This document shows, piece after piece, positions 34,172-60,900 of a stretch of DNA of 64,000 nt; positions within the stretch are counted from its first letter, which is position 1; every line of letters begins with the position of its first letter. This DNA comes from Verrucomicrobiota bacterium (GTDB lineage Bacteria; Verrucomicrobiota; Verrucomicrobiia; Opitutales; Opitutaceae), in assembly GCA_028293545.1 (NCBI GenBank), contig JAQGOP010000050.1, forward strand, positions 1-64,000. Direction: 5' to 3'. The notes under the pieces were generated by a model that was given only the letters and a program-made list of their open reading frames with translations, had not been told where the DNA came from and did not search any database. Position numbers and translations under genes: made by a program.

Positions 34172-34855
34172 TCAGTTGCTCGAGATCCGGTCGTCGGGAA
34201 GGCCGCCCTGCAGTTTTCGCCGCAGCCGGATCGCCTCGATATCGTAGCGCAACTGCTGCGAAAAAAGTTCGAGCCGTCGGCGCACGTCGAGCGTCTCGAG
34301 CAACTTCTGCTTCAGCGCGCTGTTCTCGCAGAGGCTGAACGCCGCGAGGTCGATGAAAACCTCCGGGTCGTCCACCGTCCGCAAGAAATCCGCCATCTCC
34401 GCCGGCATCGGCGCGCCGAACTTCTGTTTCAACCCGATCAAGCGCGCCAACTCCGTCCGCAAGCGGACGTTTTCCGCCGCGTCCTTCACCGGGTCGCTTT
34501 CCAATGCGCGAATCCGAACCTTGCGATACGGGTCGTCGGTGACGATTTCCAGGAATTCGACGCGGCAGAGTCCTTGGAGCAACAGGTTCGAAGTGCCATT
34601 TTCGTTTTTCTGGCAGGCCCGGACGATGCCGACGCTCGCAATGCGGTGCGGTGGCTCGAATTCCTCCTCTTCGGCGGCAACTTTCAGGTTGAGCCCCGTC
34701 ACGGCGAACAACCGATCGCTGGCGAGCACGTCCTTTAACATTCGCCGGTATCGGGGCTCGAAAATGTGCAGCGGCAACAGCGCCTGCGGGAAGAAGGTCA
34801 CGTTCGGCAAGGTCATCACCGGCACGACCTCAGGCAATGTGATCTCCATCTCCAT
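34172..34855 (-). CDS. LON substrate-binding domain protein (stand-alone)
   Basis: 227 aa. TLPNVTFFPQALLPLHIFEP, YRRMLKDVLASDRLFAV and IASVGIVRACQKNENGTSNL, then LLLQGLCRVEFLEIV are the beta-strands of the LON N-terminal domain; the C-terminal half is helical. There is no ATPase or protease part. Such stand-alone LON-domain proteins are common but their role is not settled; they may bind unfolded substrates. The gene lies divergent to dnaK with a 324-base shared upstream region. Confidence 0.85.
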   Translation of the reverse strand: MEMEITLPEVVPVMTLPNVTFFPQALLPLHIFEPRYRRMLKDVLASDRLFAVTGLNLKVAAEEEEFEPPHRIASVGIVRACQKNENGTSNLLLQGLCRVEFLEIVTDDPYRKVRIRALESDPVKDAAENVRLRTELARLIGLKQKFGAPMPAEMADFLRTVDDPEVFIDLAAFSLCENSALKQKLLETLDVRRRLELFSQQLRYDIEAIRLRRKLQGGLPDDRISSN

Positions 34856-35179: not shown

Positions 35180-37129
35180 ATGAGCAAAATTTTAGGCATC
35201 GATCTCGGCACCACCAACTCCTGTATGTCGGTAATGGAGGGCGGCGAACCGGTCGTTATTCCCAACGCGGAAGGCGCCCGCACGACTCCTTCCGTCGTCG
35301 CATTCACCAAGAGCGGTGAGCGTCTCGTGGGCCAAGCCGCGAAACGCCAAGCCGTCACCAACCCTCGCAACACTGTTTTCTCGGCCAAGCGCCTGATCGG
35401 CCGCAAATTCTCCGAAGTCAGCGCTGAGGCGAAGAACATGCCCTTCAAAGTCGTCGAGGGCAAAAACGGCGATGCGTACATCGAAGTTCAATCCGGCGAA
35501 AAGACCGAGCAGTTCGCTCCGCAGCAAATCGCGGCGTTCGTGCTGGGTAAATTGAAGGCCGATGCCGAGGCTTTCCTCGGTGAAAAGGTCACGCAGGCAG
35601 TCATTACGGTCCCGGCCTATTTCAACGACTCCCAGCGTCAGGCGACGAAGGATGCCGGCAAGATCGCCGGCCTCGACGTCCTCCGCATCATCAACGAGCC
35701 GACGGCGGCGTCGCTGGCTTACGGCCTCGACAAGAAGAAGGACGAAAAGATCGCGGTATTCGACTTGGGCGGCGGCACGTTTGACGTGTCGGTCCTCGAG
35801 ATCGGCGATGGCGTTTTTGAAGTCAAAGCCACGAACGGCGACACCCACCTCGGCGGCGACAACTGGGACGACGCCATCATTGGCTGGCTCGTCGACACCT
35901 TCAAGAAGGACAACGGCATCGACCTCCGCAAAGACCCGATGGCGCTCCAGCGCCTGAAGGAAGAAGCGGAAAAGGCGAAGATTGCCCTTTCGTCCACGCA
36001 GTCGGTCGACATCAACCTGCCGTTCATCACGGCGGATGCGTCCGGCCCGAAGCATCTCAACGTCCAGCTCAGCCGGGCGAAAATGGAGCAGATCTGCGAA
36101 TCTCTTTTCGAGCGCTGCATCCAGCCGTTCAAGAACTGCCTCAAGGACGCGGACCTCAACTCCTCGCAGATCGATGAGCTCGTGCTCGTCGGCGGTATGA
36201 CCCGCATGCCCAAGGTGGTCGACATCGCCAAGACCCTTGGTGGCAAACCGCCGCACCAAGGCGTGAACCCGGACGAAGTCGTCGCCGTCGGCGCGGCCAT
36301 CCAGGGCGGCGTCCTCAAGGGCGACGTTCGCGACGTGCTGCTCCTCGACGTCACTCCGTTGACGCTCGGCATCATGACCGCGGGCGACGTATCGACCGCG
36401 ATGATCCCGCGCAATACGACCATTCCCTCAAAGAAGACGCAGGTCTTCTCGACCTACAGCGACAACCAGCCGGGCGTTGAAATCGTCGTCCTCCAGGGCG
36501 AGCGCTCGATGGCGAAGGACAACAAGACGCTCGGCACGTTCAAGCTCGACGGCATTCCGCCGGCGCCGCGGGGCACGCCGCAGATCGAGGTCACTTTCGA
36601 CATCGATGCGAACGGCATCCTCCATGTTTCCGCCAAGGACCTCGGCACGGGCAAGGACCAGAAGATCACGATCCAAGGCTCATCCGGCCTCTCCAAGGAA
36701 GAGGTCGAAAAGATGACCAAGGATGCGGAGCTTCACGCCGAAGAGGACAAGAAGCGGAAGGAAGCCGTTGAAACGAGAAACCAACTCGACAGCACCATCT
36801 ACCAGATCGAGAAGACGCTGAAGGACTCGGGCGATAAAATGCCCGCGGACAAAAAAGCGCCGATCGAAGCTGCGATTGCCGACGCGAAGAAGGAGCTCGA
36901 GAGCAACGACGGTCCGCGCATGAAAGCCGCGATGGAGAAGCTTACCGCCCTCGGCGCCGAGCTCTACGCCGAGGCTCAGAAGAACACGCAGGCAGCTGCG
37001 GAAGGCGCTCCTGGAGCGGCTCCGACGGACGGCGCCCCGGAAGAACCGGCCGGCAAGAAGTCGGAGAAAAAGGCCGACGTCGTCGATGCCGATTTCGAGG
37101 TCGTTGACGAAGACAAAGACAAAAAGTAA
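35180..37129 (+). CDS. dnaK: Molecular chaperone DnaK (Hsp70)
   Basis: 649 aa, full length. ATPase domain: [90 protein letters not shown]. The linker is [14 protein letters not shown], followed by the substrate domain and a helical lid; the C-terminal [14 protein letters not shown] is the usual acidic tail. ATP-driven refolding chaperone, used with DnaJ and GrpE, which are not in this window. Followed by groES and groL in the same direction. Confidence 0.97.
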
Positions 37130-37230: not shown

Positions 37231-37527
37231 ATGGCTAACGTAAAAATCAAGCCCATCGGTGATCGTGTTCTCGTCTAACACATCGAAGAACAAGAGCAGG
37301 TCCGCGGAGTAATCATCATCCCGGACAGCGCCAAAGAAAAGCCGCAGGAGGCCAAGGTCATCGCCCTCGGCACCGGCAAGAAAGACGAAAACGGCAAGAT
37401 CACGCCCTTCGAAGTGAAGGTCGGCGACACCGTCCTCATCAGCAAATACGGCGGCACCGAGGTTAAGCTCGGTGAAAAAAAGTACACGCTCGTCCGCGAA
37501 GACGACATCCTCGGCGTCATCGGCTAA
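37231..37527 (+). pseudogene. groES: groES (GroEL co-chaperonin) with an in-frame TAA at codon 16
   Basis: The frame starts MANVKIKPIGDRVLV, then TAA at 37276-37278, then continues open as [20 protein letters not shown] up to the normal end [13 protein letters not shown] and a TAA at 37525; 98 codons in all, the usual length. In other GroES proteins the residue after RVLV is Lys, so one AAA or AAG to TAA change explains the stop. The mobile loop normally has VRGG before III; here GGV replaces GG by GV. No ATG or GTG re-initiation codon lies directly after the stop. The gene is otherwise intact and sits correctly 46 bases before groL, so it is a very recent loss or a sequence error. Function of the downstream part without re-initiation is not expected. 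Confidence 0.88.
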
Positions 37528-37564: not shown

Positions 37565-39208
<1,644 letters not shown>

Positions 39209-39268: not shown

Positions 39269-39273
39269 GTGGC

Positions 39274-39443
39274 GTAGGGCGTGGTCTCCGACCCGCTTCG
39301 GGAAAAAACGTAGCGCCGTGTCTCCGACCGGCTCGTTGGGCTCTGACTACAAATCCGCGACGCAGTGTTTGAAACGCGTAAGGGAGCCAGTCGAAGACGT
39401 GGCGTTACGTTTTCCCCGAGGCGGGTCGGAGACCACGCCCTAC
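39274..39443. repeat. Inverted pair of a dispersed repeat (GTAGGGCGTGG type)
   Basis: Arms 39274-39302 and 39415-39443 are complementary at 28 of 29 positions and enclose 112 bases. The shared core GGTCGGAGACC also ends each unit of the array at 59627-60900. The pair occupies most of 39209-39564, which otherwise holds only the chaperonin terminator. Confidence 0.8.
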
Positions 39444-39564
39444 GCTGCTGATTATTCCGGAAATACTTGGCGGGCCGTCTGCTTTTGAAATGACAGCTGC
39501 GGATGGCCACCTAGCTTCGGTCAAACTTCGCGCGCCGACTCCCGGCGCTGCCGTTTGCTTTGCC

Positions 39565-59626: not shown

Positions 59627-60900
59627 CGCGCCCCACTTTGAAAACCGCTGCGCGATCGCGCGGGCGATTTGTTGAAAACGGTGGCGATCGAATCGGTCCT
59701 GGGTAATCCACGGGACGTGCCGCATATGCGGGGATCGACGCCCCAACGGGGCATTCCAGCCGGAGCCCAGGGCAACGCCCTGGGAATTCATTGGAAGAAA
59801 ACAGGAGCCCTGAAAGGGCGGTTTAATGGCTGGCGTTTTCATTACGGTAAATTGGGCCGCCCCTGCAGGGCTCCGGGGTTGTTCGAAATTAGAAACCCAG
59901 GGCGTTGCCCTGGGCTCTGGCTGGGGTGCCCCGTTGGGGCGTCGGGCCTGCACCGGGGCTCTGGCTTGGATGCTCCGTTGGGGCGTCGGACCAACGGCCG
60001 TTGATCCCGCTTGTGGCTGATGTGTCCGTCGGCGCCATTCGCGGGATGGGGCTGTCGGCGGGTCGGAGACCGCGCCCCACTTTGAAAACCGCTGCGCAAT
60101 CGAGTTGGGCGACTTGTTGAAAACGGTGGCGATCGAATCGGGCGTGAGTAATGCGCAGGATGTGCCGCATATCCGGGGATCGACGCCCCAATGGGGCACT
60201 CCAGCGAGAGCCCAGGGCAACGCCCTGGGAATTCATCGGAAGAAACAGGAGCCCTGAAAGGGCGGTTTAACGGCTGGCGGTTTCATCACGGTAAATTGGG
60301 CCGCCCCTTCAGGGCTCCGGGGTTCTCAAATCAGAAACCCAGGGCGTTGCCCTGGGCTCGGGCTGGGGTGCCCCGTTGGGGCGTCGGGCCAACGGCCGTT
60401 GATCCCGCTTGTGACTAATGTGTCCGTCGGCGCCATTCGCGGGATGGGGTTGTTGGCGGGTCGGAGACCGCGCCCCACTTTGTAAAACCGCTGCGCGGTC
60501 GCGCGGGGCGACTTGTTGAAAACGGTGGCGATCGAATCGGGCGTGAGGAATCCGCGGGACGTGCCGTATATCAGGGGATCGACGCCCCAACGGGGCATTA
60601 CAGCCAGAGCCCAGGGCAACGCCCTGGGAATTCGTCGGAAGAAACAGGAGCCCTGAAAGGGCGGTTTAACGGCTGGCGTTTTCATCACGGTAAATTGGGC
60701 CGCCCCTTCAGGGCTCCGGGTGGTTCGAAATTAGAAACCCAGGGCGTTGCCCTGGGCTCTGGCTGGGATGCCCCGTTGGGGCGTTGAGCGACACCGGGGC
60801 TCTGGTTGGGTGCCCCGTTGGGCGTCGGGCCAACACCGGGGCTCGGCTCTGGCTGGGGGTGCCCCGTTGGGGCGTCGAGCCTAGGGAGGCTGCCGACGGG
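59627..60900. repeat. Array of three large composite repeats, with extra partial copies
   Basis: Units start near 59627, 60072 and 60470 (steps of about 445 and 398). Each starts GCGCCCCACTT, then GAAAACCGCTGCGC (as in the 3' end of the DegT gene at 60920), then GTTGAAAACGGTGGCGATCG (as in araC at 59514), then a large imperfect inverted repeat, in the first copy with arms at 59736-59761 and 59919-59944 (24 of 26 pair), and ends with GGTCGGAGACCGCGCCCC. Inside the big palindrome are small hairpins such as CCCAGGGC-AA-CGCCCTGGG. Extra right-arm copies follow up to 60880. No gene is supported within; open frames here translate the repeats. It is not CRISPR: units are too long and there is no short repeat-spacer pattern. 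Confidence 0.85.

Follow-up and report, generated by a model that had tools for sequence, protein, structure and literature searches.

Whether groES has truly been broken in a bacterium that keeps an intact groL, or only in its draft genome, is the question raised by the dnaK-groES-groL operon in the window (the whole stretch of 64,000 nucleotides analyzed, which is part of the 140,774-base contig C56). The draft genome (G000), assembled from environmental DNA and coming from an uncultured bacterium in or close to Opitutaceae, comprises 3.96 Mb in 63 contigs and is rated 83.84% complete with 3.67% contamination. An earlier note on this DNA had reported an in-frame TAA at codon 16 of groES, and translation indeed yielded 15 residues before the TAA and 82 between it and the terminal stop (Table 1). 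As the note had also stated, groL just 3' of groES was open and matched Cpn60, and no re-initiation codon was near, ATG, GTG, and TTG being absent in frame from the 18 codons after the stop. The codons 3' of the TAA do run to the correct end, but a K21Q substitution (AAA to CAA) among them had been overlooked.

Table 1. Features of the chaperone operon and of the groES frame, in window positions
Feature	Position	Strand	Basis or comparison
Gene with LON substrate-binding domain, upstream of dnaK	34172..34855	-	Domain match
dnaK, intact, 649 aa, HSP70 match	35180..37129	+	Open frame, profile match
groES reading frame with internal TAA at codon 16	37231..37527	+	Translation; Cpn10 profile match across entire frame with one stop
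TAA codon (E16*)	37276..37278	+	GAA or GAG (Glu) in congeners having groES
Window-only A to C, K21Q	37291	+	AAA in 29/29 pattern-scan loci
Window-only GGC to GTA, G27V, mobile loop	37309..37311	+	Gly in 29/29 pattern-scan loci
groL, intact, 544 aa, Cpn60 match	37574..39208	+	Open frame, profile match

The window frame, interrupted at codon 16, matched the Cpn10 profile (PF00166) over its full domain (109.6 bits, positions 1 to 93 of 93; cutoff, 21.1) with the one TAA read through, and the 82 residues 3' of the stop matched Cpn10 by themselves. It was the only match with an internal stop among the Cpn10 matches listed for 95 genomes, and its identity to the nearest congener (G010) was 95.9% with the stop masked. 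In place, frame, and length it is the same as the GroES gene of the Opitutaceae dnaK-groES-groL operon, from which it differs in three codons: 16 (a stop), 21 (Q, not K), and 27 (V, not G). Codon 16 was GAA or GAG in 9 of 11 congeners (all those in which groES was found) and in contig C41 of the same assembly. Among 29 loci recovered by a pattern scan, a set that overlaps the 11 congeners, it was GAA in 13, GAG in 12, and CAG in 4; Lys was present at this codon in three rows from other genera (G012, G060, and G013). The ancestral codon was probably Glu. A comparison with homologues, which the earlier note had recommended, found the stop and the loop change in the window only, but its derivation of the stop from a Lys codon by one base change was not borne out, Glu standing there instead. 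The loop change is real but had been misplaced: codon 25 begins at 37303, and the change lies in codon 27, 11 codons past the stop, where two bases differ. The conserved GG pair of the mobile loop is lost in the window, which reads VRGV where all 29 pattern-scan loci read VRGG (the pattern behind the scan left the second and third bases of codon 27 free).

Window-only sites were defined as those at which at least 7 genus rows were present and identical and the window was different, the rows being nine species plus C41. The operon contained 54 such sites (27 in dnaK, 4 in groES, and 23 in groL). The four in groES (37276 G to T, 37291 A to C, 37310 G to T, and 37311 C to A) were all nonsynonymous, affected residues common to the genus rows, and fitted within 36 bases, with none in the remaining bases of the gene. 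Of the 50 sites in dnaK and groL, 35 were transitions, 15 were transversions, and only 5 were nonsynonymous; both genes are under purifying selection. Changes of the A<->C or G<->T class made up 4/4 of the sites in groES versus 5/50 in dnaK and groL (Fisher P = 0.0004), transversions 4/4 versus 15/50 (P = 0.012), and nonsynonymous changes 4/4 versus 5/50 (P = 0.0004), in comparisons that were picked after the data had been seen and that count the two bases of codon 27 separately. With random placement, 3 of the 8 window-only nonsynonymous codons would fall within 35 bases with a P of about 0.012 (computed post hoc). A count of four is what would be expected from dnaK and groL, which have 50 such sites in about 3.6 kb; what is odd about the groES changes is their placement and kind, and their count is not raised.

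A single full-length intact groES was found in 9 of the 11 congeners (in G006 together with a short fragment), and two full-length operons were found in none of the 11 searched. G002 and G003, rated 100% and 99% complete, yielded no groES: in G002, dnaK and groL are each cut by contig ends and the piece between them is missing, and in G003 no part of the operon was found, the search there giving no groL and nothing closer to dnaK than a distant HSP70. The operon was cut by contig ends in six congeners (G002, G004, G005, G007, G010, and G011) and whole in G001, G006, G008, and G009. Because it is broken by contig ends or missing in 7 of the 11, the operon region assembles badly in this genus. 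By identity, the 29 pattern-scan loci did not include another assembly of this species; the best (L072) was 89% identical over the operon, and another (L069) was 80% identical.

We consider it likely that the groES stop is a local consensus error in a conserved, badly assembling stretch and that it is most likely absent from the organism. A sequencing or assembly error was the first option offered by the earlier note, and it is the best supported one, given four clustered changes of the same class, a kind and a clustering that resemble error. The contig consensus would be miscalled at four bases within a short stretch of 36, probably where the stretch is covered by few or poor reads or where reads are hard to place; the cause would be base calling or assembly, with low coverage at this point. 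Placement may be hard for an operon in which co-occurring species share about 86% identity and of which this one bin has three versions. The real gene would encode an ordinary GroES, as in the congeners. According to an excerpt of a study of HiSeq data, the most frequent miscalls are A<->C (29.2%) and G<->T (26.8%), which are ascribed to shared laser excitation (PMC3334598). All four groES changes belong to this same-laser class and lie close together, although HiSeq may not be the platform of this assembly and most such errors never reach a consensus. A metagenome error study, likewise in excerpt, reports that substitutions cluster, that T is the most frequent misreading of G, and that wrong bases tend to be G (PMC4787001); contrary to this last tendency, none of the four groES changes has G as the new base. 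The bin also resembles those draft environmental genomes in which conserved operons of several strains or species are mixed, since it has three orthologous operons, two of them on contigs of 4.2 and 5.1 kb, but mixing alone would bring in the bases of other species, and none of the ten genus rows has the window's four. Against a local error, a contig of 140.8 kb does not suggest low depth overall, and a second stop, on contig C54, is of another kind, so that the assembly can carry other stops, perhaps real ones. Assemblers commonly discard single-read sequence, which also counts against an error. A literature search found no paper on misassembly in metagenome-assembled genomes. If the stop is an error, conserved operons in mixed bins can yield false pseudogenes, and the kind and clustering of changes relative to congeners can flag these without reads.

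The rest of the assembly was surveyed by a coding-signal scan covering 1,045,221 bases, which detects in-frame stops, not frameshifts, and which required that no in-frame ATG, GTG, or TTG follow within 18 codons of the stop. It returned 18 sites, of which groES and the one on C54 were judged by eye to be interrupted genes and the other 16 to be neighboring genes or antisense shadows. In 218,867 bases of six congeners scanned likewise, 6 sites were returned, none convincing by eye. Apart from these two genes, the quarter of the assembly that was scanned looks almost free of interruptions; this argues against a generally poor consensus as the cause of the groES stop, so that a fault confined to this spot, or a genuine event, is left. 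The C54 stop (TAA at G000:C54:10834; L171) interrupts a frame of about 700 codons, presumably of an S9 peptidase-like gene, which is intact in G001, G008, and G005 (715 to 717 codons, with Tyr at the stop position). It arose by T to A, without a cluster of changes as in groES, and 22 of the 171 window-only changes in this gene, defined there against three relatives only, were of the A<->C or G<->T class. This stop marks either a real pseudogene or a second error.

Were the groES changes real and recent, a clustered mutation would have knocked out the gene in the sampled strain or a sub-population, too early for more decay to follow. Such an allele would look identical to what is seen, with the rest of the frame intact and dnaK and groL under purifying selection; the near absence of other in-frame stops from the scanned sequence, and a C54 gene stopped where three congeners are intact, would also fit. 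This history nevertheless requires that a gene essential to E. coli and to the bacteria studied be lost, one that 9 of the 11 congeners keep in one intact full-length copy, the operon being cut in G002 and absent from the assembly of G003. It further requires G27V as well as three additional changes of one substitution class. Judging from the alignment ends, residue 27 is expected to match G24 of E. coli; the G24D substitution there makes GroES temperature sensitive, according to an excerpt of PMC3514286. On balance we regard a real, recent loss as unlikely. It is likewise doubtful that a free-living Opitutaceae strain truly has a broken groES by an intact groL, with either a horizontally gained C41 operon or GroEL alone. 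If the stop were real, a protein regarded as essential would have been lost in nature while the neighboring partner gene stayed intact.

The changes could also be real and tolerated, with the C41 operon supplying GroES in the same organism. The earlier note had suggested that another groES copy might exist, and this was upheld insofar as the assembly contains three groES matches: that on C56 with the stop, an intact one on C41 (5,110 bases), and one on C24 (4,219 bases) that is truncated at codon 80, where the contig ends. Each of the three is adjacent to dnaK, with groL also present on C56 and C41, the latter carrying an intact dnaK-groES-groL operon. C41 shares the bin and a similar G+C content (0.624 versus 0.620), and its GroES is 91.8% identical to the window frame. 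As a same-cell backup, however, C41 and C24 are poor evidence, because the affinity of C24 is with another genus and C41 resembles the orthologous locus of another species. The dnaK of C24 (L037) grouped with Oleiharenicola (support, 97/86), making this contig a probable foreign contaminant of the bin. C41 and C56 differ at 14% of bases, the same as between species of the genus. In the dnaK tree, C41 formed a separate lineage of the genus (97/95) outside the group of the window, G001, and G008 (97/95 and 98/86), and in the groL tree it was placed, weakly, with G006 (88/91), outside the window's eight-row group. The gene downstream on C41 is related (52 to 56%) to the one that follows groL in G001 and G008, as expected for the orthologous locus of another species, and is one of three matches in G000 versus two each in G001 and G008. 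With no congener having two full-length operons, and with C24 as a precedent for foreign contigs in the bin, C41 is probably foreign as well, the orthologous locus of another species, and rescue by its operon seems quite improbable. A literature search for groES pseudogenes led to PMC3914690, in an excerpt of which both groES copies are intact.

An old pseudogene, long free of selection, is very improbable; it would account for the stop and for the missense changes at two conserved sites, but the other groES bases have no window-only change, indel, or further stop, so that relaxation of selection over the whole gene is not seen. Decoding of the TAA by readthrough, recoding, or re-initiation to give a working GroES is barely credible, for although the frame 3' of the stop is intact, TAA also terminates dnaK, groES, and groL in this very operon, congeners with groES have no stop here, no start follows within 18 codons, the RNA around the stop does not exceed shuffled sequence in stability (z = -0.17), and K21Q and G27V are left unexplained. 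A recoding structure was looked for in the RNA around the stop, and no unusual fold was found. A donor elsewhere in the assembly, as in gene conversion or a misjoined copy, was also considered and rejected: the altered 66 bases matched only themselves and C41 (91%), and the other four matches were weak (E, 0.79 to 2.75).

The LON-domain gene that precedes dnaK in the window also does so on C24, and six congeners have similar DNA at that place. A 36-base inverted repeat (94%) lies 3' of groL (39272-39307 and 39410-39445); its core, GGCGTGGTCTCCGACC, occurs in five copies in the assembly and in none of the 11 congeners. Farther along the window is a 49-base inverted repeat (92%; 60181-60229 and 60338-60386) with a shorter one inside it (60248-60318), and GGTCTCCGACC occurs at 60061 and 60459.
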